Shown here: one piece after another, positions 1,405 through 32,299 of the stretch
Layout: each line of letters begins with the position of its first letter
How positions within the stretch are numbered: the first letter of the stretch is position 1
From: Clostridium sp.
GTDB taxonomy: Bacteria > Bacillota > Clostridia > Clostridiales > Clostridiaceae
Direction of reading: 5' to 3'
Length of the DNA stretch: 32,765 bases
Assembly (NCBI RefSeq): GCF_016650035.1
Contig: NZ_JAENWM010000043.1
Location: forward strand, 1-32,765
Position numbers and translations under genes: made by a program
The notes under the pieces: generated by a model
Databases searched by the model: none
The model's input: the letters and a program-made list of their open reading frames with translations, nothing else
Told to the model about the DNA's origin: nothing

Positions 1405-1766
1405 AATAAAAAAATCTCCCACCCTATAAACAAGTTTAACTATGTTTATAGGGACGAAAGATTCGTGGTACCACCCTAGTTCGTAATTTATTGATATAAA
1501 TTACCTCTTCATTTTGGTTAAAAGAAATATAAATATATGAAAATGCATTTCCTTTACCATAGCCCTATATCGGGGGCATCCGTCTTCGTTTACTCAATGT
1601 GAAACTACAGTTTTTGTGATATGTTTTTATAAAATCTATCATCACAATAGTTTCAATTTCAACTCAGCAGCTCAGGAGTGATTATTATATATCTGCTCAA
1701 CACCAACTCTCAGCAAATGTTGGTTCTCTGTGGGGTTACTGTGATATTTTTCTCTCCATCATAGCT
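1405..1766 (-). promoter_or_regulatory. T-box leader, probable isoleucine specifier
   Basis: On the minus strand AGGGTGGTACCACG (about 1478-1465) matches the conserved T-box sequence AGGGUGGNACCGCG; the U after UGG would pair with an A discriminator base. A long terminator follows: CCCTATAAACA pairs with TGTTTATAGGG, the stem extends outward through AATCT/AGATT, and a run of T ends near 1409. The Stem I region (about 1757-1675) holds GGAG/CTCC at its base and ACCAAC/GTTGGT near the apex. Immediately 5' of the CTCC strand is ATC plus A (1682-1679), the position of the specifier codon, suggesting Ile. A TATAAT box lies at 1773-1778. The T-box identity is firm; the specifier is a manual fold. 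Confidence 0.88.
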
Positions 1767-1906
1767 TTATTTATTATATTACTTTTAGTATATGTTCGAA
1801 AAAGCAATTTAGGAACACATAAATTGATTTTTTGAAAAAAAATTATATTGAGTCATCATATTTCCCTCGTGAATAATAAAATTAAAGTACAGAGAGGAAG
1901 TTAATT

Positions 1907-4209: not shown

Positions 4210-5994
4210 ATGAAAAAATTACTAACAGGAAACGAAGCTATTGCACGTGGAGCATATGAAGCAGGAGTAAAATTTGCATCGGCATATCCAGGAACACCTA
4301 GTACTGAAATATTAGAAAATATTGCTTTATATAAAGAGGATATATTAGCTGAGTGGGCTACAAATGAAAAGGTTGCAGTAGAAGCAGTAATTGGCGCATC
4401 TTTTGCAGGGGCTAGATCAATAGCTGCTATGAAGCATGTCGGTCTTAATGTTGCAGCAGATCCACTTTTTACAAATGCTTATACAGGAGTTAATGGTGGA
4501 CTTGTTATAGTATCCGGGGATGAACCGGGCATGCATTCATCACAGAATGAACAAGATAACAGAAACTATGCAAGATTTGCTAAAATACCAATGTTTGAGC
4601 CGTCTGACAGTCAAGAAGCAAAAGATATGATTAAAGATGCATTTGAAATAAGTGAAAAATATGATAGTCCAGTACTTTTTAGAATCACTACTAGACTTTG
4701 TCATTCTAAGGGAATAGTGCAATGTGAAGATAGACGCGACGTTCCATTAAAAGAATATGTTAAGGATATAACAAAATATATACCTGTTCCAGCTCATTCA
4801 ACAAAGCTGAGAGTAAAAGTAGAAGAGAGACTAAACAAATTGGAAGAGTTTTCAAACAATACACCTTTAAATTATATTGAATTAAATGACACAAAAATAG
4901 GTGTAGTTGCATCTGGCTGTTCTTACAAATTTGCTAAAGAAGTCTTTGGTGATAATGCATCTTATTTAAAACTTGGATTTACAAATCCACTTCCTAAAGC
5001 GATGATGAAAGACTTTGCTTCAAAAGTTGATAAAATATATGTGATTGAAGAAAATGATCCAATAATAGAAAATGAATTAAAAATGATGGGAATAGAATGT
5101 TTTGGAAAAAATACTTTTCCATACAATGGAGAAATGACTCCAGATGTAATTAGAAAATCGGTTTATGGTAAGAGTGAAGCAACTATAGAATATGATGAAT
5201 GTAAAGTCGTTGCAAGACCTCCAACTCTATGTGCCGGATGCCCTCACAGAGGTTTCTTCTACGAAATCAGTAAGAGGAAAAACACTGTAATATCTGGCGA
5301 TATAGGATGTTATACACTAGGATTTGCTGAGCCATATAACGCTATGGACTGGTCAGTATGTATGGGTGCTAGTATTAGTATGGGACATGGAGCACAACAA
5401 GTATTTAATATGAAAAAGGACAATGAAACTCGAGTAGTATCAGTACTTGGAGACTCTACATTCTTCCATACTGGAATTAACTCATTATTAGATGTTGTTT
5501 ATAATAAAGGTAATTCCATAAATGTAATTTTAGATAATAGAATTACGGGTATGACAGGACATCAAGAAAATCCAGGTACAGGATATACACTGCAAGGATT
5601 AGAAACAGAAATGGTTGATATAGAAGCAATTGTAAAAGCTTGTGGGATTAAAAACGTACGAGTAGTAAATCCTAATGACTTAAAAGAAATGAAAGAAACT
5701 ATAGATTGGGCTTACGCGTTAAATGAAGCATCAGTAATAATTACTAGATGGCCTTGTGTATTAAAAAAATTCTCTAAAGAAGACAAAGAAGAATTTGCAG
5801 GTGCTTTCCAAGGTAACTGTGTGGTTGATGAAGATAAATGTATAGGATGTAAAAAATGCCTTAAAACTGGATGTCCAGCAATATCCTTTGATAAGACAAC
5901 TAAAAAATCTAGTATAGATAAGGGTCCATGTGTTAGTTGTGGAATATGTGAACAAGTATGCCCTGTAGGTGCAATTTCCAAGGAGGTAAAATAA
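4210..5994 (+). CDS. iorA: Indolepyruvate:ferredoxin oxidoreductase, alpha subunit
   Basis: The 594-aa length and architecture fit IorA. The N-terminal pyrimidine-binding part carries SAYPGTPSTEILE. PTLCAGCPHRGFF begins near 337, and the thiamine-diphosphate part holds GDIGCYTLG (near 364), GDSTFFHTG and ILDNRITGMTG. The C-terminus has two 4Fe-4S motifs, with cysteines at 544/547/550/555 and 574/577/580/584. The complex oxidatively decarboxylates aryl pyruvates, made by transamination of aromatic amino acids, to aryl-acetyl-CoA and reduces ferredoxin in the cytoplasm. AAAAGGAG precedes the ATG. The gene is first in an operon with iorB and a membrane protein, behind a sigma-54 promoter. Keto-acid preference cannot be fixed from sequence. 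Confidence 0.96.
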   Translation: MKKLLTGNEAIARGAYEAGVKFASAYPGTPSTEILENIALYKEDILAEWATNEKVAVEAVIGASFAGARSIAAMKHVGLNVAADPLFTNAYTGVNGGLVIVSGDEPGMHSSQNEQDNRNYARFAKIPMFEPSDSQEAKDMIKDAFEISEKYDSPVLFRITTRLCHSKGIVQCEDRRDVPLKEYVKDITKYIPVPAHSTKLRVKVEERLNKLEEFSNNTPLNYIELNDTKIGVVASGCSYKFAKEVFGDNASYLKLGFTNPLPKAMMKDFASKVDKIYVIEENDPIIENELKMMGIECFGKNTFPYNGEMTPDVIRKSVYGKSEATIEYDECKVVARPPTLCAGCPHRGFFYEISKRKNTVISGDIGCYTLGFAEPYNAMDWSVCMGASISMGHGAQQVFNMKKDNETRVVSVLGDSTFFHTGINSLLDVVYNKGNSINVILDNRITGMTGHQENPGTGYTLQGLETEMVDIEAIVKACGIKNVRVVNPNDLKEMKETIDWAYALNEASVIITRWPCVLKKFSKEDKEEFAGAFQGNCVVDEDKCIGCKKCLKTGCPAISFDKTTKKSSIDKGPCVSCGICEQVCPVGAISKEVK

Positions 5995-5995
5995 T

Positions 5996-6565
5996 ATGAC
6001 AAAGAATATAATGTTAGTTGGAGTAGGTGGTCAAGGTACTATTCTTGCCAGCAAACTTTTAACAACAGGCTTAATGGAAGCAGGATACGATGTTAAAATG
6101 AGCGAAATACATGGAATGTCTCAAAGGGGTGGAGCAGTTTCGTCTCAGGTTAGATACGGTGAAAATGTACAATCTCCTGTAATAGAAATGGGAGGAGCTG
6201 ATATATTAGTTTCCTTTGAAAAAATGGAAGCTATGAGATGGCTTAAATACTTAAAGCCAGAAGGAAAGGTTATAGTTAACGATTACGAAATGGACTCCAT
6301 GCCAATTCTTTCTGGAAAAGTTGATTATCCGTCAGGAATTATTGAAGAACTGAGTGCCAAAGTTCAGACAACAGTAGTAGATGCTGCAAAACAAGCTGAA
6401 AAACTTGGGAATGCGAAAGTTATGAATGTTATTCTACTAGGAACTCTAGTGAAGGCAATGGAACTTGAAGATATAGATTGGAAAAAAATAATAGAAGATA
6501 ATGTTAAGCCAAAATTTGTTGAACTTAACTTAAAGGCTTTTGAAGTTGGAATGAGCCTCGCTTGA
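5996..6565 (+). CDS. iorB: Indolepyruvate:ferredoxin oxidoreductase, beta subunit
   Basis: The 189-aa protein starts 1 nt after the iorA stop. It shows GVGGQGTILASKLL and EIHGMSQRGGAVSSQVR, the conserved gamma-type 2-oxoacid oxidoreductase domain that completes the active site with IorA. The length is normal for IorB. The preceding AAGGAGG lies inside the end of iorA, so the two are translationally coupled. Its TGA overlaps the TTG start of the next gene by 4 nt, so the membrane protein is probably co-translated. Confidence 0.95.
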   Translation: MTKNIMLVGVGGQGTILASKLLTTGLMEAGYDVKMSEIHGMSQRGGAVSSQVRYGENVQSPVIEMGGADILVSFEKMEAMRWLKYLKPEGKVIVNDYEMDSMPILSGKVDYPSGIIEELSAKVQTTVVDAAKQAEKLGNAKVMNVILLGTLVKAMELEDIDWKKIIEDNVKPKFVELNLKAFEVGMSLA

Positions 6566-8970: not shown

Positions 8971-10312
8971 ATTTTTGTATATCATATTCGTTAACTTTAT
9001 TTTGTAGCTGTCTTCGAGTGATACCTAATATTTTTGCTGTTTTTGTCATGCTAAAGGTGTTTTTTTCTAATACGGTTTCTATGTATTTTTTTTCTATTGA
9101 AGACCTAAATGCTTTTAGTGTTTGATCTCCTTCATAGTCTGTAGAAGGAACTTCATGTATTAATAAATCATCTTTTGAAATAACACCATGTTCACTAAAA
9201 ACTACCAGCCTTTCGATTATGTTTTTAAATTCTCGTACATTGCCTGGATAGTCATATTGGTTTAAATATTCCCAAACTTCAGGCTCTATGGTATGTATTT
9301 CTTTATCCATTTGCACAGATGCCGTAGCTATGAAGTTACTAGCCAAACTATATATATCTTCTTTATGTTCCCTTAGTGGTGGTATTTCAATGATGATTGT
9401 GTTGATTCTATAGTAGAAATCTTCTCTAAATAGTCCTTGGTCTATTAATTTTACTATAGATTTATTTGTGGCTGTTATAAGTCTAAAGTCAACGGGAGTA
9501 CTTATGTTGCTACCTATTTTTTCTATTGCTCTGTCTTCAATTACTCTTAGTAGTTTGATTTGTGTGGATAAAGGCATGTCAGCTATTTCATCTAGAAATA
9601 GTGTCCCCATGTTAGCTGATTCAAATCTACCAATTCGCTCTTCATTAGCACCAGTGAAAGCCCCCTTAATATGTCCGAATAATTCAGATTCTAATACACT
9701 TTCAGAGAGAGCATGACAGTTTACTGCTACAAATGGTTTGTTTTTGCGCTGGCTCTGAGTATGAATGAAGTTTGCAAATACTTCTTTTCCTACTCCCGAC
9801 TCACCAAGTAAAATGACGTTGACGGGGGTTTTGGCTACTTTTCGAGCCATATCTATAATTTTTTTAAATTCACTATTTTCTGATTCTAAAAGCGATTTCT
9901 CTTTTTTATCATATGTTTTAGAGTATAGTTCTAATTGGCTGTACTCTTCATATACTTTTTCTATTTCTTCTATGAGTTCAATAGGATCATTTCCTTTTAC
10001 AAAATAAGATATTGCTCCTTTTTTCATGGCTTCTACTGCGGTGGGTATAGTGGCATATGCAGTCATAAGGATAACTTTGATATCTTGGTCTAATTCTACT
10101 GTTTTTTCTAAAAGCTCTATGCCGTTCATTCCATCCATCATTAAATCTGTCACTACCATCTGATATTTTTTGTGTCTGAGTTTTTTCAGAGCATCTTCTG
10201 CTGAGAGTACTGTTTCTATGATATAGCCCTCAATCTGGAGTATTTTGGCTAGTCCTTTAGAATATGCCGCTTCATCATCTACTATTAATATTCCATAATT
10301 CTTATTTTTCAT
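8969..10312 (-). CDS. NtrC-family sigma-54 response regulator
   Basis: The 447-aa protein has a receiver domain (1-120) with the acidic pair in VDDE, phospho-acceptor Asp56 (VVTDLMMDG) and a lysine in SYFVKG. The AAA+ domain has GESGVGKE as Walker A, GAFTGA at 217-222 and GTLFLDEI as Walker B, and a Fis-type helix-turn-helix ends the protein (MTKTAKILGITRRQLQNK). All parts needed for phosphorylation and sigma-54 activation are present. It is downstream of the sensor kinase gene with a 10-nt gap, so the two form one operon. The nearest -24/-12 promoter is that of brnQ, the likely target. Confidence 0.95.
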   Translation of the reverse strand: MKNKNYGILIVDDEAAYSKGLAKILQIEGYIIETVLSAEDALKKLRHKKYQMVVTDLMMDGMNGIELLEKTVELDQDIKVILMTAYATIPTAVEAMKKGAISYFVKGNDPIELIEEIEKVYEEYSQLELYSKTYDKKEKSLLESENSEFKKIIDMARKVAKTPVNVILLGESGVGKEVFANFIHTQSQRKNKPFVAVNCHALSESVLESELFGHIKGAFTGANEERIGRFESANMGTLFLDEIADMPLSTQIKLLRVIEDRAIEKIGSNISTPVDFRLITATNKSIVKLIDQGLFREDFYYRINTIIIEIPPLREHKEDIYSLASNFIATASVQMDKEIHTIEPEVWEYLNQYDYPGNVREFKNIIERLVVFSEHGVISKDDLLIHEVPSTDYEGDQTLKAFRSSIEKKYIETVLEKNTFSMTKTAKILGITRRQLQNKVNEYDIQK

Positions 10313-10322
10313 TTGCCATCTC

Positions 10323-12350
10323 CTATTTCAAAATTAGTATAGGGTCATGGATCTTTGTGGGAAGAGTAATTATAAACTTCGAACCCTCACCAAGTTTACT
10401 TTCTACTCTAATAGATCCTTCCATCTTTTGTACTTCGTTATAAACAATAAATAGTCCAAGGCCCGTGCCTTCTCTAGCTTGCTTAGTAGTATAAAATGGA
10501 TCGAATAAATACAATTGTGTATTTGCATTCATGCCCATGCCTGTATCAGATACTTCAATAATTATATTGTCATCATTTTTGCAAGCGTGTACCAGAAGTA
10601 TACCTCCTTGCTCCATGGCATCAGTAGCATTTGAAAAGAGATTTAGTAAGATATGTTTCAGTGATTCACTATATAGCTCTACTTCTAAGTCTCTTTCCAC
10701 ACATAACTTGAATTCTATATGGTTTTGCTTCAAGGCTTTTTTATTTAGTTCATAAAGATTGGATATAAAATCATTGATTTGTATTTTGTGTATTTTGTTA
10801 TCAGAAAGCCTTGAAAAGTTTAAAAGATTGTCTATAATTTTATTGGCTCTAGTCACTGAATTATCTATTATATCTATTGCCTCTTTTTTATCCGCTTCTT
10901 CTTTCATACGTCTAAGTAAATATGTATAGTTCCGAATGATTCCCAGAGGCGTCCTTATTTCATGTGCAATACCTGCAGCAAGTTGTCCTACTGCAGCCAT
11001 TTTACTTGATTGCAACATTTTTTGTTCTGCAAGTTTTAGATCAGTTATATCTTCCATCATGACTAGTACTCGTTCTTTAGTATTTGATATTTTATCTAAC
11101 AGATAAGTTCGCACTTTAAATTTTCTGTTTTGATATTCTACTTCTGTTTCTACTGAAGTTCTATATTCAAATATATCCTTAATGAGACAAACGTCGCAGT
11201 TACTTCCTAGTATTCCATTGACATTTTTGCAGTGCATATTTTTCACTACATTTATAGAGTATCCTATATACTTACAAAATGCTGTGTTGGCTTCTGTCAC
11301 GCAACAGTCCTGGTTTACCACCACCATTAAATGAGTGGTAAGTCCATTGAAAGTAGTCTCTAATTCGTTTTTAGATATATCCAATGCATTTGTTTGCTTT
11401 TTCACTTCTTTTTTTAGTTCTCTGTTCCAATAATAAAAAAATAGTGCTACTAGCATTGCTACGAGTATAGCATATTTAAATAAAAGCATATATTTATCAC
11501 CGTTGTTATTTTTCATAATGAGTGGGGATATGCCAAACCATTTTTCATATATTCTTTCCATGGTGTTATTCTTTTGCAACTGGTATATTGAATTGTTAAT
11601 TATTTTTAATAATATTTTATTGTCTTTTTTTACTGCTATTACTGCTGCTCTTTCGTACAAGTATTCATTTAGTATTGAATATTCACGGCTGAGTCCCTCT
11701 TGGGTTAAATAGTAGTTGATTACTGATTCATCTCCAAGGACCGCATCTACTTCACCCTTTTCAAGGAGACTAATAGCATCTCTTAAATTTTCAGTTTCAA
11801 CTCCATGCACATCAGTATAATTTTCAGACAAATGCTCAAATATATAGTCTCCTTTTATTGCCGCTATAGTTTTCCCTTTTAAATTCTGTGGTGTTTTGAT
11901 ATTGCTATTATTTTTTTTTGTTAATATTGCCCCTCTTTGATAGTATATAGGGTCAGTAAATATAAAGCTACGAGAGCGATCTTTGGAAGCGTGCATGTCA
12001 CAGAAATCTATAGTTCCACTTTCAAGGGCTTCAAGGGCTTCATTCCAAATCATAGGTTTCATCTTTATGTTGACTCCTAGTTCTATAGAAAGAGCATTGA
12101 GATAATCTATTACGAGCCCCTCATATTGTCCACTATCCGGATTTAAATATCTTAGCGGTGGAGTGTTTTGATCTGATCCATATATTAAGTCTCCATGTTC
12201 TTTCAAATACTCTATTTCAGAGGCAGTTAGTCTATTGTCTTTTGAAAAGTATTCGACTATGTTCATGTTGTGTTCTATCTTGAAATAACTATTTGTAAAT
12301 ATAAGTGCAGTTATTATAATTAAAAATCCTAATATGTATTTTTTCTTCAT
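10323..12350 (-). CDS. Sensor histidine kinase with extracellular solute-binding (SBP_bac_3) domain
   Basis: The start MKKKYILGFL at 12350 is preferred over an ATG at 12437 because a GGGGTG site precedes it and the protein then opens with a membrane anchor. The 675-aa product has an N-terminal transmembrane segment, a periplasmic-binding-protein-like domain (GSDQNTPPLRY, GTIDFCDM, WFGIS end; about 45-290), a second transmembrane segment, a PAS domain with cysteines spaced like C-x11-C-x2-C (MHCKNVNG...NCDVC), a HisKA box with His463 (GIAHEIRTPL) and HATPase boxes (NLFSNATDAM, DTGMGM, GTGLGL). It likely senses an amino acid outside the cell and phosphorylates the partner regulator. The PAS cysteines may bind a cofactor; that is unproven. 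Confidence 0.93.
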   Translation of the reverse strand: MKKKYILGFLIIITALIFTNSYFKIEHNMNIVEYFSKDNRLTASEIEYLKEHGDLIYGSDQNTPPLRYLNPDSGQYEGLVIDYLNALSIELGVNIKMKPMIWNEALEALESGTIDFCDMHASKDRSRSFIFTDPIYYQRGAILTKKNNSNIKTPQNLKGKTIAAIKGDYIFEHLSENYTDVHGVETENLRDAISLLEKGEVDAVLGDESVINYYLTQEGLSREYSILNEYLYERAAVIAVKKDNKILLKIINNSIYQLQKNNTMERIYEKWFGISPLIMKNNNGDKYMLLFKYAILVAMLVALFFYYWNRELKKEVKKQTNALDISKNELETTFNGLTTHLMVVVNQDCCVTEANTAFCKYIGYSINVVKNMHCKNVNGILGSNCDVCLIKDIFEYRTSVETEVEYQNRKFKVRTYLLDKISNTKERVLVMMEDITDLKLAEQKMLQSSKMAAVGQLAAGIAHEIRTPLGIIRNYTYLLRRMKEEADKKEAIDIIDNSVTRANKIIDNLLNFSRLSDNKIHKIQINDFISNLYELNKKALKQNHIEFKLCVERDLEVELYSESLKHILLNLFSNATDAMEQGGILLVHACKNDDNIIIEVSDTGMGMNANTQLYLFDPFYTTKQAREGTGLGLFIVYNEVQKMEGSIRVESKLGEGSKFIITLPTKIHDPILILK

Positions 12351-16859: not shown

Positions 16860-17724
16860 TAGACTCACCTCCAACTTTAGATTTCTTTACTTTAAAACTT
16901 AATTTTTTACCGTTTAAAGATAAAGCTAAAACTACAATTAGAGCGGTTATTAATTTTAAATCTGTGGATGGGAGTCCAAGCATTAATGCTATTGCTATGG
17001 ATCCCTTATATAGCATTGAACCGAGTAACGCTGTTGTAGTTGGTTTTAATACTCTAATTCTGCCAAATACAGATTCTCCTATTATAACAGCAGCAAGTCT
17101 CATTACTACAGTCCCAGTTCCCATTCCAACATCAGAGAACCCTTGGTATTGAGCCATCATTGAACCAGATAGAGCTACGAGTCCATTTGAAACTGCAAGA
17201 CCAATTAATTTTATACTATCTGGATTTATACTAAGGGATGCTACTAGCTGGGGATTATCTCCCACAGCCTTTAAAACAAACCCCAGTTTAGTTTTTAAAA
17301 ATAGGTCTAAACCTATCTTTACTATAATCATAAATGCAAATAAAATTATTAAAATATCTATGTTATTAGAAAATATAGTCTGTTTATCAAATAAAGGAAT
17401 ATTAGACTTTCCCATTATTCTCAAATTTATAGAATAAAGTGCTATCATAACTAAAATTCCTGATAAAAGGTTTGTTATTTTTAGTTTAACATGAAGTAAT
17501 CCTGTTAAAATACCACCCAAACATCCTGCACCAAAAGATAAAACACATGCTGCAAAGGGATTTATTCCTTTTAATAGGCAAAGTCCAGTTATTGCGGCGC
17601 CTAAAGGGAAGGTACCATCTACTGATAAATCTGGAAAATCTAATATTCTATAGGTTATATATATTCCAAAAGCTGCTATAGAGAATATTAACCCTTGCTC
17701 AATCACGTTCATTAGTATATCCAT
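16834..17724 (-). CDS. ABC importer permease (TrpY-type)
   Basis: The 296-aa, highly hydrophobic protein has about eight membrane segments and the opening IAAFGIYITYRILDFPDLSV followed by DGTFPLGAA, characteristic of branched-chain-type (BPD_transp_2) permeases paired with PF04392 binding proteins. The ATG shares its A with the TAA stop of the binding-protein gene, so the two are coupled. Length is normal. Substrate is set by the binding protein and remains open. Confidence 0.9.
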   Translation of the reverse strand: MDILMNVIEQGLIFSIAAFGIYITYRILDFPDLSVDGTFPLGAAITGLCLLKGINPFAACVLSFGAGCLGGILTGLLHVKLKITNLLSGILVMIALYSINLRIMGKSNIPLFDKQTIFSNNIDILIILFAFMIIVKIGLDLFLKTKLGFVLKAVGDNPQLVASLSINPDSIKLIGLAVSNGLVALSGSMMAQYQGFSDVGMGTGTVVMRLAAVIIGESVFGRIRVLKPTTTALLGSMLYKGSIAIALMLGLPSTDLKLITALIVVLALSLNGKKLSFKVKKSKVGGESIVKNTEAA

Positions 17725-18740
17725 TAGTTAACTCCGCCTGTTATTTTTTCTGCTTTAGTAGCTAAGTCTTGTGGGATTTTTATGTTTAATTTCTTTGCTG
17801 CATCTTCATTAATAAACAGTTGCATATCTTTTAACATTGTAATAGGAAGCTCACTCGGATTCTTACCTTCAATTATATCTACCGCCATAAGTCCTGTTTG
17901 AAATCCTAGTTTACTATAATCGATACCAATAGTCGCAAGTGCCCCTTGTACTACTATCCCTTTTTCGGCACCAATTATAGGGAGGTTTTTCTTAAAACAT
18001 GCATTTGCTATAACAGGCATAGCTGATGCTAATACATTGTCTGTAGGGATATATAGTACATCTATTTTTCCAATTATTGAACTTAAGGATTGCTGAACTT
18101 CATTTACATTTGTTATCCCAGCCGTTACAATTTCTAGCCCAAAGTTTCCAGCTACTTTCTTTGCATTGTTAACCTGGACTTCTGAGTTACTTTCACTTGT
18201 GTTGTAAAGAATTCCTACTTTTTTGGCACTGGGTATTAATTCTTTTAACAGCTCAAACTGTTTCTCTATTGAAACATTGTCTGAAGTCCCTGTCACATTA
18301 GTACCAGAATTTTCAAGTGATTTTGCAAGACCTGCATTAACTGGGTCTGTTACCGCAGTTATAAGTATTGGAATATCTTTTGTTGCATTAAACGCTGCTT
18401 GAGCAGTAGGTGTTGCCACTGCAAATATTAAATCTTCTTTTTGTGATACAAAGCTTTGAGCTATACTTTGAGCTGTGGGCATATCTCCTTGAGCATTTTG
18501 ATAATCTATTTTAATATTTTTCCCGTCTTCATATCCTTTAGATTTTAAGGCTTCGATAAATCCTTCTCTAGCCGAGTCAAGAGCAGGATGCTCGACAATT
18601 TGTGTAATACCAATTTTGATTACTTTTTTGTCATTAAGTTTTTGATCAGGGTCACCTACGGATGTTTTTGCACACCCTCCTAAAATTGATGCAGCTAATA
18701 AAACTGCTGTCAGAAATGAAATTTTTTTGTTTGCTACCAT
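17724..18740 (-). CDS. ABC importer substrate-binding lipoprotein (ABC_sub_bind, TrpX-type)
   Basis: The 338-aa protein has a signal peptide with lipobox SILGGC (Cys23), so it is a lipoprotein anchored outside the membrane. The mature part carries KIGITQIVEHPALDSAREGF, AVATPTAQAA, ITAVTDPVNAGL and TGTSDNVSIEKQFELL, recognisable from the PF04392 family. Streptococcal TrpX belongs here, and other members may bind tyrosine or related compounds. An aromatic substrate would suit the iorAB genes nearby, but this is inference. GGAGG precedes the ATG. The 5' leader carries hairpins and UAG clusters, and a HutP-family gene lies directly upstream. Confidence 0.92.
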   Translation of the reverse strand: MVANKKISFLTAVLLAASILGGCAKTSVGDPDQKLNDKKVIKIGITQIVEHPALDSAREGFIEALKSKGYEDGKNIKIDYQNAQGDMPTAQSIAQSFVSQKEDLIFAVATPTAQAAFNATKDIPILITAVTDPVNAGLAKSLENSGTNVTGTSDNVSIEKQFELLKELIPSAKKVGILYNTSESNSEVQVNNAKKVAGNFGLEIVTAGITNVNEVQQSLSSIIGKIDVLYIPTDNVLASAMPVIANACFKKNLPIIGAEKGIVVQGALATIGIDYSKLGFQTGLMAVDIIEGKNPSELPITMLKDMQLFINEDAAKKLNIKIPQDLATKAEKITGGVN

Positions 18741-18797
18741 TCTACCAATCCTCCAAAAATAATATTTTCATATTGAATTTAATATTGAAAATAAAAA

Positions 18798-18822
18798 AAG
18801 TTCTGAGTCACCAGAACTTTTA
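18798..18822 (-). terminator. Leader terminator (attenuator) before the ABC importer
   Basis: On the minus strand AAAGTTCTG pairs with CAGAACTTT around GTGACT and is followed by further T residues: a proper intrinsic terminator about 60 nt before the binding-protein start. It can end the hutP-like transcript or act as an attenuator for the importer genes. Confidence 0.85.
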
Positions 18823-18836
18823 TATAACAATACAAA

Positions 18837-18869
18837 CCTAAGGAGATTTTTCAAAAAAATCCTTAGGTT
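18837..18869 (-). promoter_or_regulatory. Second leader hairpin
   Basis: ACCTAAGGA and TCCTTAGGT (minus strand) form a perfect outer stem closed by a T-rich/A-rich inner helix. It lies between the UAG clusters and the terminator and could be part of an antitermination switch. Confidence 0.6.
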
Positions 18870-18876
18870 TAAAATT

Positions 18877-18952
18877 CTATATGTTCTACATAAACTACCA
18901 TACTACTATTTTATTAATCTGATTTTGGGTATTATTAAAAACTACTATCCTA
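18877..18952 (-). promoter_or_regulatory. Clustered UAG triplets, candidate HutP-type RNA target
   Basis: On the minus strand eight UAG triplets occur in 76 nt: three at 18952-18942 and five at 18908-18877, the latter separated by 0, 5, 6 and 6 nt. HutP of Bacillus subtilis binds NAG triplets separated by 4 nt in a leader upstream of a terminator. Here the cluster lies between a HutP-family gene and two leader hairpins. Binding is inferred. Confidence 0.6.
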
Positions 18953-18984
18953 CTCAGCAATTGTAGTATGTATATGTAAATTTG

Positions 18985-19407
18985 TCAATATACAGCTGGA
19001 ATGGAGCGGTGACTTAGTCCAATTACTACTTCGTTTAAATGGAGTAATCCTATGCTCATAAATATGCATACACTAATATGCTCTCCACTTCTAGCTATAC
19101 CAACTTTTCCGCCTACATTGAATCCACTTGCTTTTTGCATAATTTGAGCAAGAGCCTCTCTTGTAGCTCCAACTACAGCGCCATCATGTACATGATAATC
19201 TTCTTTTATAAGCCCTTTCTTTTTAGATGCAACTAAGGCTCTTTCTATGACCTTTGATACAGTATCATTAAAATTTCCACCAATATCTACAGCCACAGTC
19301 AAAATTCCTTTATTTTTAAAAGACTCAGTTAATGTCTTTTCATCTTCTCTAGAAGATATGGACATTTCTATAGAAGCCCTTGCCACATCAGTACTTTGTA
19401 TATTCAT
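18985..19407 (-). CDS. HutP-family RNA-binding antitermination protein
   Basis: The 140-aa protein matches HutP along its length: VDIGGNFNDTVSKVIERALV then ASKKKGLI (compare the ASKKSGVI region), GATREALAQI (compare HATMEALHG) and ISVCIFMSIGLL with IGLSHRSIP at the end. HutP hexamers bind UAG-rich leaders with histidine and Mg2+ and prevent termination. Aligned by eye, the HutP metal-ligand histidines in HALYH become GAVVG here, although HVH sits just before. The effector may therefore differ. AGGAGG-like TGGAGG precedes the ATG. The gene lies directly upstream of the ABC importer leader, not of histidine-degradation genes. It is probably an autoregulated attenuator protein for the importer. 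Confidence 0.85.
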   Translation of the reverse strand: MNIQSTDVARASIEMSISSREDEKTLTESFKNKGILTVAVDIGGNFNDTVSKVIERALVASKKKGLIKEDYHVHDGAVVGATREALAQIMQKASGFNVGGKVGIARSGEHISVCIFMSIGLLHLNEVVIGLSHRSIPAVY

Positions 19408-30559: not shown

Positions 30560-30870
30560 TCGGATGAAGATTGTGGGAGAGAGATGGCTTGCCATCCGCC
30601 GAAGAGGAAAAACTTTCAGGCACCTAAGGATTTTTAAGTGAAACTATATTTATATAGGTACAAAATCTCCATTAACTTGTGAGTTTTGGATTAGTATTAA
30701 ATTAATAGTTGAACTGAAAAACCTATTAGTTTCGCACAGAAACTATTTACTAGGAGAAAACCGTAATTGGACGAGCCTCTGGAGAGAGCTGGTTAAACAG
30801 ACACCGAAGGAGCAAGATAGTATTATTCAGATAATCTATCGAATCTCTCAGGTAAAAAGGACAGGGGATA
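30560..30870 (+). promoter_or_regulatory. Tandem glycine riboswitch with an insertion
   Basis: Aptamer 1 core: GGGAGAGA, the stem GATGGC-TT-GCCATC, CGCCGAAGAGG and CTTTCAGGCA (30575-30622). Aptamer 2 core: CCTCTGGAGAG, CACCGAAGG and CTCTCAGGTAAAAAGGACAG (about 30776-30865), with P1 formed by CCTCT and AGGGG. These are the hallmark glycine-riboswitch sequences in the usual tandem order. Between them, after AGGCA of aptamer 1, lie 132 extra nt (30623-30754) that can fold on themselves. The regulated gene is an alanine/glycine symporter. Confidence 0.9.
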
Positions 30871-30893
30871 GAAATTATTAAAAAAATTTTGTC

Positions 30894-30925: not shown

Positions 30926-32299
30926 ATGACAGCGTTTATGGAAGTACTTAACAAAATTGATTCATTGGTTTGGGGACCACCGTTACTTATTTTACTAGTA
31001 GGTACAGGACTATATTTAACTATAAGATTGGGTTTATTGCAGGTTACTAAGCTACCACTTGCACTTAAGTATTTATTTACTAAAGAAAAGAATAATGATG
31101 GAGCGGGTGATGTATCATCATTTGCAGCTTTATGTACAGCACTCGCGGCAACAATAGGAACAGGAAATATTGTTGGTGTTGCAACAGCAATTAAACTTGG
31201 TGGACCAGGAGCTTTATTCTGGATGTGGGTAGCTGCTTTCTTTGGGATGGCTACAAAGTATTCTGAAGCTTTACTTGCAGTAAAATACAGGACTGTTGAT
31301 GAGAATGGACAAATTGCTGGAGGGCCTATGTATTACCTTGAAAATGGGCTTAAAAATAAGTTCTTAGCAAAAATGTTTGCAGTCTTTGGTGTAGGAGTTG
31401 CCTTTTTTGGAATAGGTACTTTCCCACAGGTAAATGCAATAGTAGAAGCTGCATCAATTACATTTAATATACCCATTATTGCAACAGCAATAGTAATAAC
31501 ACTTTTAGTTGCATTAATAACTATTGGTGGAATAAAAAGTATAGCAGCAGTAGCAGAAAAGACTGTTCCATTTATGGCAGTGTTTTATGTTATAGGAGCT
31601 TTAATAATTATAATAATCAATATTGATTTATTACCAGGAACAATAGCTTTAGTTGTAAAGAGTGCATTTACTCCAACTGCAGCAGCAGGTGGTTTTACAG
31701 GGGCAACAGTAATGCTTGCTATGCGAAGTGGTGTTGCTAGAGGAGTATTCTCTAATGAGTCTGGTCTAGGTAGTGCACCAATTGCAGCAGCGGCGGCTAA
31801 AACTAAGTTTTGTGTAAGACAAGGACTTGTATCTATGACAGGTACTTTCTTTGATACAATAATTATTTGTACTATGACTGGTCTTGTTTTAATAATGACT
31901 GGAGCTTGGAATTCTGAGCATGCAGGAGCAGCTATGACAAACTATGCTTTTAGTAATGGGTTGCCTATTGCGATAATAGGACAGTTGATTGTGACTATTG
32001 GACTTATATTCTTTGCATTAACAACAATACTTGGTTGGAATTATTATGGAGAAAGATGTGTTGTATATTTAATAGGAGTAAAAGGAATTAAACCTTATAG
32101 AGGGATATATATTGTCTTAGTAGCATTAGGTGCATTCTTAAAATTAGAAATGATTTGGGTAATTGCTGATATAGTAAATGGACTTATGGCAATTCCAAAC
32201 TTAATCGGATTGATTGGATTAAGTGGAGTTATTATAAATGAAACAAGAAAATACTTTAGAGATCTTGAAAATGATAAAATGCTTAAAGCAGGGAAATAA
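30926..32299 (+). CDS. Sodium:alanine/glycine symporter (AGCS family)
   Basis: The 457-aa protein has about ten to eleven membrane segments and the AGCS marks ALAATIGTGNIVGVATAI, GGPGALFWMWVAAFFGMATK, GGPMYYLENG and RGVFSNESGLGSAPIAAA. Length is normal for AlsT/YaaJ-type carriers. It would import glycine or alanine with sodium ions. The preceding tandem glycine riboswitch points to glycine as substrate or signal. It has its own terminator and is monocistronic. Confidence 0.95.
   Translation: MTAFMEVLNKIDSLVWGPPLLILLVGTGLYLTIRLGLLQVTKLPLALKYLFTKEKNNDGAGDVSSFAALCTALAATIGTGNIVGVATAIKLGGPGALFWMWVAAFFGMATKYSEALLAVKYRTVDENGQIAGGPMYYLENGLKNKFLAKMFAVFGVGVAFFGIGTFPQVNAIVEAASITFNIPIIATAIVITLLVALITIGGIKSIAAVAEKTVPFMAVFYVIGALIIIIINIDLLPGTIALVVKSAFTPTAAAGGFTGATVMLAMRSGVARGVFSNESGLGSAPIAAAAAKTKFCVRQGLVSMTGTFFDTIIICTMTGLVLIMTGAWNSEHAGAAMTNYAFSNGLPIAIIGQLIVTIGLIFFALTTILGWNYYGERCVVYLIGVKGIKPYRGIYIVLVALGAFLKLEMIWVIADIVNGLMAIPNLIGLIGLSGVIINETRKYFRDLENDKMLKAGK

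Follow-up and report, generated by a model that had tools for sequence, protein, structure and literature searches.

Introduction

HutP of Bacillus subtilis prevents terminator formation, as described in passages of PMC7430163, and the HutP passages of PMC12456014 also concern B. subtilis. According to sections of PMC7430163 and PMC4347634, TRAP bound to NAG repeats blocks an antiterminator, and it prevents translation where the NAGs overlie a ribosome-binding site. Among the papers listed by searches of the open-licence PMC literature, we found no description of a clostridial HutP; other publications may exist. Here we analysed a HutP-like gene and the UAG-rich leader of the ABC importer operon downstream of it, both on the minus strand of a 32,765-nt stretch of Clostridium sp. 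DNA (contig NZ_JAENWM010000043.1, positions 1 to 32,765, assembly GCF_016650035.1), which as a whole is referred to as the window.

Our preferred reading, to which we give somewhat better than even chances, is that a clostridial subfamily of HutP represses a tyrosine importer in a TRAP-like manner. With the effector, most likely tyrosine, in good supply, HutP would bind NAG triplets that recur at regular intervals in the leader of the importer. On the UAG cluster it would block an antiterminator whose 5' strand holds the last UAGs, and the terminator would form; on three NAGs over the Shine-Dalgarno sequence and the start codon it would block ribosomes on read-through transcripts. With tyrosine scarce, the RNA would remain free, the antiterminator would form and the importer would be made. 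Protein-RNA binding, effector and polarity are what we infer here from sequence comparison. An earlier note on this DNA had proposed self-regulated antitermination, had left the effector open and did not include the start-codon operator; its mechanism is probably to be inverted, in that protein on the UAGs would be expected to bring about termination and to mask the start site, in the manner of TRAP.

Results

Architecture of the hutP-importer locus

All features of the locus lie on the minus strand. The HutP-like gene (18985..19407) encodes a member of the PF09021 family (E 1.6e-45, 154.9 bits, cut-off 25), the only one in this genome, and B. subtilis HutP scores 111.3 bits on the same model. 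A gap of 244 nt separates the gene from the importer operon. The importer leader has a promoter-like site, TTGACA-17-TACAAT (18960..18988, 11/12 matches), that overlaps the hutP stop. It is followed by a cluster of eight UAG triplets spanning 76 nt (18877..18952; 5' bases at 18952, 18947, 18944, 18908, 18905, 18897, 18888 and 18879), which includes UAG-UAUGG-UAG at 18905-18895 and is the proposed HutP binding site.

In the predicted fold of an RNA ending in the terminator loop, the last two UAGs lie in UAGAAC and AUAUAG at 18888-18877, which are base-paired to UUAUAU and GUUCUG at 18827-18812. The antiterminator 5' strand is thus UAGAACAUAUAG (18877..18888), and its 3' strand (18812..18827) has AAAA between the two paired segments. 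This outer hairpin (18888-18812) surrounds an inner hairpin with a UAAACCUAAGGA stem (18833..18871). GUUCUG is shared with the 5' arm of the predicted intrinsic terminator (18796..18821), into which the full leader is predicted to fold. Downstream, GAG-GAUUGG-UAG-AAUGG-UAG (18734..18753) lies over the Shine-Dalgarno sequence and start codon as a proposed translational operator. The operon consists, by profile matches, of genes for a substrate-binding lipoprotein (PF04392, 17724..18740), a permease (PF02653, 16834..17724) and an ABC ATPase (PF00005, 16062..16874). No Rfam family matched the importer leader, and no T-box (RF00230) was detected there. The anatomy listed in the earlier note, namely a HutP-like gene, the 76-nt cluster of eight UAGs, an outer hairpin, a terminator and importer genes, is therefore present in full. 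That note had seen no hut genes in the window; no hutH-like gene lies on the HutP contig.

Conservation of the leader and its linkage to hutP

A profile scan of named genomes gave at least 568 confirmed candidates, the best 80 loci of which were kept; this sample leans to the importer type. The importer lies downstream of hutP in 64 of the 80 loci (58 within 900 nt, six farther away), a clostridial neighbourhood that the earlier note had proposed to look for. In the other 16 the examined flank contains no importer, and some contigs end early; that of L070 ends inside a UAG leader and that of L081 shortly after one. No UAG cluster follows hutP in some loci without an importer in the flank (e.g. 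L035, L057, L082). In L035 (7629-8415), hutP precedes a gene for a TM1266-like regulator and one for the S component of an ECF transporter.

Where the importer is 1.5 to 6 kb away from hutP (L054, L058, L065, L085, L106), a UAG cluster and a terminator precede the importer. The leader therefore belongs to the importer, since the cluster accompanies it even at a distance from hutP. In 44 of 65 leaders the cluster is preceded by a promoter with at least 10/12 matches, compared to 5.7 in mononucleotide shuffles. In regions upstream of hutP itself the mean maximum was 3.0 UAG per 100 nt (n=78) versus 7.8 in the leaders, with AUGGUAG in 1/78. As hutP is as a rule devoid of a UAG leader, and the importer leader has its own promoter at the hutP end, self-regulation through this leader, as previously suggested, is not supported. 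In L058 of Clostridium bovifaecis (10300-10940) the importer leader carries a very large UAG array with tandem UAGAAGUU repeats, and three binding-protein genes lie in a row.

Genome-wide comparison of 148 genomes of relatives, with a binding-protein threshold of 1e-30 or better, detected a HutP match in 69 (68 over the Pfam cut-off), the binding protein in 58 and both in 47 (Fisher 1e-11). Comparison with relatives bears out the link between a HutP-family gene and the UAG leader of an ABC importer rather than histidine degradation.

Taken alone, the UAG density of the window is mildly unusual (8 in 100 nt, where shuffling of 400 nt with dinucleotides preserved gives 5.4; p 0.025), and among 39 importers beside hutP a UAG excess over dinucleotide shuffles reached p below 0.05 in 15, a test that is weak by itself. 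Since UAG counting has this weakness, tests of spacing and of the operator were added. In 65 leaders, window included and the last 45 nt left out, adjacent UAGs were separated by 5 nt in 140 cases compared to 16.8 in dinucleotide shuffles. Spacers of 0 nt (86 versus 19.8), 2 nt (62 versus 18.3) and 6 nt (41 versus 16.1) were also enriched, and those of 1 nt and 3 nt (8 versus 19.1) were depleted. UAUGG and AAUGG were the most frequent 5-nt spacers in the clusters; AUGGUAG occurred 52 times compared to 2.1 in shuffles. Support for a function of the UAGs comes from this conservation, not from their density in the window, and the clusters, whose absence from relatives the earlier note would have taken as refutation, are conserved.

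The motif UAG-N-AUGG-UAG had 10 matches in the genome of the window, two of them in the HutP-importer locus, and 15 for the reversed control; one of the matches elsewhere in the genome (L118) has an equal number of UAGs around it, 9 in 211 nt, and the region resembles coding sequence. A two-part pattern searched in 391 genomes of the class gave five matches (one control match), all ahead of the importer's binding-protein gene, with L266 placed by coordinates. Most single-motif matches away from importers look like background.

A three-NAG motif over the importer start codon

The start-site motif GAG-GAUGG-UAG-NAUGG-UAG is present in 51 of the 65 leaders when a first spacer of 4-6 nt is allowed. 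Its three NAGs with 5-nt spacers cover the Shine-Dalgarno sequence and the first two codons, the start codon being the AUG within the second spacer. An operator running through the start codon would account for the Met-Val N-terminus of the regulated lipoproteins. With at most one mismatch, the strict motif had 40 matches in 37 of the 148 genomes, compared to 2 matches of the reversed control, and all 37 genomes are HutP-positive (Fisher 4e-16). By coordinates, 35 of the 40 matches are at importer starts. Four of the other five lie ahead of transporter-like genes (G064, G025, G088, G144), and the fifth (G110:C8), which falls within a coding frame, resembles background.

Distribution over importer genes was assessed for 72 of 73 binding-protein rows, the one left out being the second fragment of a gene in G048. 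The operator was found at the importer start in 29/39 cases within 2.5 kb of hutP, in 5/20 elsewhere in HutP genomes and in 0/13 importers of 11 HutP-less genomes. The five distant operator-bearing importers (L153, L154, L180, L186, L188) are at least 5.4 kb from hutP or on another contig. A sixth distant importer, L195, has a UAG cluster and lacks the operator.

UAG triplets in a predicted antiterminator

Of 72 leaders, 57 had a detectable terminator. The final UAG of each cluster was picked without regard to pairing, and the pairing of its 16-nt segment with the terminator arm was evaluated in the 55 leaders with such a UAG, 51 of them distinct. Pairing averaged -6.0 kcal/mol compared to -2.6 kcal/mol for other segments of the same leader (n=55, Wilcoxon 6e-8), and in 28/55 leaders no more than 5% of the other segments matched it. 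In nascent RNAs, we asked whether the minimum free energy structure pairs at least 5 arm bases upstream, including at least 2 UAG bases; it does so in 39/57 leaders compared to 30% of shuffles. Moreover, the best duplex with the terminator arm contained a UAG in 52/57 leaders versus 25.9 in shuffles. Pairing is typically of the type UAGGAGA:UCUCCU, and in L084 and L086 UAGGCGAG pairs with CUCGCCU.

Importer pockets, T-boxes and further operator-bearing genes

In a comparison with PDB entries, the closest solved relative of the window binding protein was CD0873 (6HNI), followed by VC_1101 and SP1069. The relevant passages of PMC6816091 state that these proteins bind tyrosine, phenylalanine and tryptophan, and that Glu263 decides for tyrosine, with tryptophan disfavoured by Tyr279 and favoured by Gln284. 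In the window protein, Glu259 and Tyr275 occupy the specificity positions Glu263/Tyr279. Pockets in the named loci are nearly uniform: 63 of 68 rows are Glu/Tyr, two Glu/Phe, one Asp/Tyr, one Val/Asn and one is cut off; the Val/Asn row is an opposite-strand paralog in L062. The lipoprotein had been called TrpX-type. Its 321 bits are below the TrpX equivalog cut-off of 390 bits and its pocket is of the tyrosine type; identity as TrpX or a tryptophan importer was rejected on the pocket residues.

Upstream regions without a HutP neighbour were scanned for 20 importer paralogs or importers of HutP-less genomes, and a T-box was found before six. Specifiers, read from the Rfam alignment, were UUC (Phe) in L137, L141, L271 and L272, whose binding proteins have Val/Tyr, and UGG (Trp) in L285, whose binding protein has Val/Asn.

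Operator-type sequences also precede other genes. In G042, the DAHP synthase gene has a leader that contains UAGUAUGGUAG, and its start site reads GGAGGAUGGUAG; the prephenate dehydrogenase gene tyrA follows it, and an aroK-like gene and aroQ come before. In G077, the same leader type and start site precede DAHP synthase. The operator is likewise found ahead of a sodium-dependent transporter, exactly in G088 and with one mismatch each in G064 and G025; the transporter family was checked for G088 and assigned by likeness for the other two. The G064 and G025 transporters also lie behind a T-box with UAC (Tyr) at the specifier position, with a match below the Rfam gathering score (E 1e-17 to 1e-18). 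Tyrosine is the most likely effector, as importer pocket, T-box and other-target evidence all point to it.

Among the operator-bearing transporter loci L291, L292 and L295, the first two have UAG motifs upstream of the T-box. In G144 (L263/L294), a HutP genome without this importer, an exact three-NAG operator precedes a sodium:solute symporter-like gene.

Histidine ligand residues in clostridial HutP proteins

His73, His77, His138 and Arg88 of B. subtilis HutP are the residues that we take to be Mg/L-histidine ligands. Glycine occupies both the His73 and the His77 position in 112 of 113 clostridial HutP copies, some genomes being counted twice. Importer-type proteins have Glu or Asn at the His138 position and variable residues at that of Arg88. 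The window type and B. subtilis HutP align remotely (hhalign 41% probability), so that positions near the C-terminus are uncertain. Asn97, Arg106, His110, Asn125 and Glu126 of the HutP-like protein are conserved. The window HutP thus has neither these presumed ligands nor linkage to hut genes; the only PF00221 (hutH-like) match of its genome is on another contig, C73. By coordinates, among the HutP matches of the 148 relatives only two lie next to a PF00221 gene, directly before it, those of G046 (L298) and G076 (L299). Both proteins retain the ligand residues and share 44-45% identity with B. subtilis HutP. Their hutP-hutH leaders, read by eye, have UAG/GAG within the terminator hairpin, and because of this location protein binding should prevent termination there.

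In other clostridial families a PF09021 gene lies directly before chorismate mutase aroH (PF07736) in 6 of 10 loci examined. In L002, L004, L005, L008, L014, L015 and L108, hutP-aroH is mostly followed by a cytidylate-kinase-like gene. This neighbourhood suggests an old link of the family to aromatic amino acids.

Other features of the window

The sole T-box of the window (1447-1771, minus strand) has AUC (Ile) at the specifier position; only short open reading frames come after it, the longest of 52 aa at 1151-1309, ahead of an opposite-strand gene. On the plus strand, tandem glycine riboswitch aptamers (30564-30643 and 30769-30874) lie upstream of the amino acid carrier gene agcS (30926-32299), and genes for the alpha and beta subunits of indolepyruvate ferredoxin oxidoreductase, an enzyme of aromatic amino acid metabolism, are located at 4210-6565.

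Discussion

The leading alternative is that these proteins act as classical HutP, the effector-bound protein preventing the terminator and inducing the importer; antitermination was also the mechanism proposed in the earlier note. The protein family is the same, its Bacillus member prevents terminator formation (stated in passages of PMC7430163), and the two clostridial hutP-hutH leaders indicate that this mode exists in the lineage. Furthermore, a UAG is found somewhere in the terminator hairpin of 17/57 importer leaders. However, UAG or GAG is in the 5' arm of only 4/57, and the last UAG, which is conserved, is predicted to pair with this arm as part of the antiterminator strand, for which reasons protein bound to the UAGs should shift the balance towards termination. 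Repression also fits the overlap between the start-site operator and the Shine-Dalgarno sequence. On these grounds we favour repression over antitermination with fair confidence, and regard antitermination of the importer as unlikely. Somewhat less likely again is repression at the level of translation only, with the UAG cluster as a loading site that brings protein close to the start codon, and with a terminator that is constitutive or otherwise controlled. The strong conservation of the start-site operator and the G088 transporter, which has the operator without a UAG cluster upstream, would agree with such a mechanism, but the clusters share the 5-nt spacing of the operator and are tied to the terminator arm.

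Two further explanations concern the ligand and the protein. That a different factor binds the UAG repeats, or that they belong to a protein-free attenuator, with hutP as a mere neighbour, is very improbable. The leader matches no Rfam family, which would agree with it, yet the operator is confined to HutP genomes (37/37), including cases in which the importer lies away from hutP. We give slightly less credence still to histidine as the effector, as in Bacillus, with an importer carrying histidine. Family membership and the hutH-like gene elsewhere in the genome of the window speak for it. The presumed ligand residues, however, are absent from the importer class and kept in the two hutH-linked clostridial HutPs, which makes histidine an unlikely effector; the pocket, T-box and target evidence is aromatic, and only these two HutPs adjoin a PF00221 gene.

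Several observations weigh against TRAP-like repression by a tyrosine-bound HutP. Besides the 17 hairpins with a UAG, other UAG segments of the same leader paired with the arm equally well in 121/420 cases, and 18/57 leaders lack the arm-UAG pairing in the nascent fold. Swapping of arms among leaders for 27 unusual terminator arms gave mixed results and no convincing covariation: foreign leaders paired equally well or better in 30/30 cases for L045, L097 and L109, and in 0/30 for L084 and L086. Leaders and genomes are related, and the p-values given above overstate independence. The genome of the window is outside the 37 with a strict operator, as its start site has one 6-nt spacer. Glu/Tyr pockets are also found in importers without the operator, including those of HutP-less genomes, and L288, with its T-box in L212, has Glu/Tyr although the specifier, aligned across an insertion, reads UUC. 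At the DAHP synthase start site the third NAG follows a 6-nt spacer, so that the site falls outside the strict pattern, and the operator is missing from the importers in G042 and G077 (L181, L184).

HutP has been known as one histidine-dependent antiterminator. If TRAP-like repression holds, many clostridial HutPs are aromatic amino acid sensors with the opposite output, which would assign a role to PF09021 proteins in their hundreds (at least 568 relatives of the importer-type alignment) and explain control of tyrosine uptake without a T-box in many clostridia. It is an even question whether this extends to the whole clostridial subfamily as an attenuator that senses tyrosine and binds RNA, doing for tyrosine what TRAP does for tryptophan but built from another protein family, with two-level control of one mRNA, a regulon of import and synthesis, and a split from a histidine-sensing ancestor or sister still found beside hutH. 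The hutH-linked and importer-linked pair would then be a natural case of effector and polarity change in one RNA-binding family. As the operator is short and exact, the regulon is predictable.

Compared to B. subtilis HutP, the clostridial system shares the PF09021 domain, the position of the gene upstream of a regulated terminator and clustered NAG triplets (for Bacillus, as given in passages of PMC7430163). It probably represents a HutP-type system that responds to a different effector, probably with reversed sign, and has an additional operator over the start codon. The clostridial type lacks equivalents of the four residues presumed to bind Mg and histidine, its candidate targets serve tyrosine uptake and synthesis, its dominant spacer is 5 nt, and its UAGs are in the antiterminator, not in the 5' arm of the terminator.

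T-box-controlled trpXYZ-type importers, such as S. suis trpX (in the part of PMC9382623 dealing with it), are similar in that a PF04392 importer is attenuated according to amino acid state; they differ in using a tRNA-binding RNA, which the window leader does not have. At the protein level, the importer resembles CD0873 of Clostridioides difficile, its closest solved relative, in the same Glu/Tyr specificity residues.

TRAP of B. subtilis, which controls trp by attenuation and trpP and trpG by translation, also uses NAG repeats, a blocked antiterminator that leads to termination, and repeats over the ribosome-binding sites of targets, one of them a transporter (passages of PMC4347634 and PMC7430163). 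In anatomy, and in anatomy only, the clostridial leader is TRAP-type, its repeat cluster overlapping both an antiterminator strand and, at the start site, the ribosome-binding site. The protein is not TRAP: it belongs to PF09021 and its sites have a main spacer of 5 nt, whereas TRAP is of another family, has 9-11 repeats with 2-3 nt spacers and responds to tryptophan. The clostridial HutPs would thus have converged on the logic of TRAP from a different protein family.

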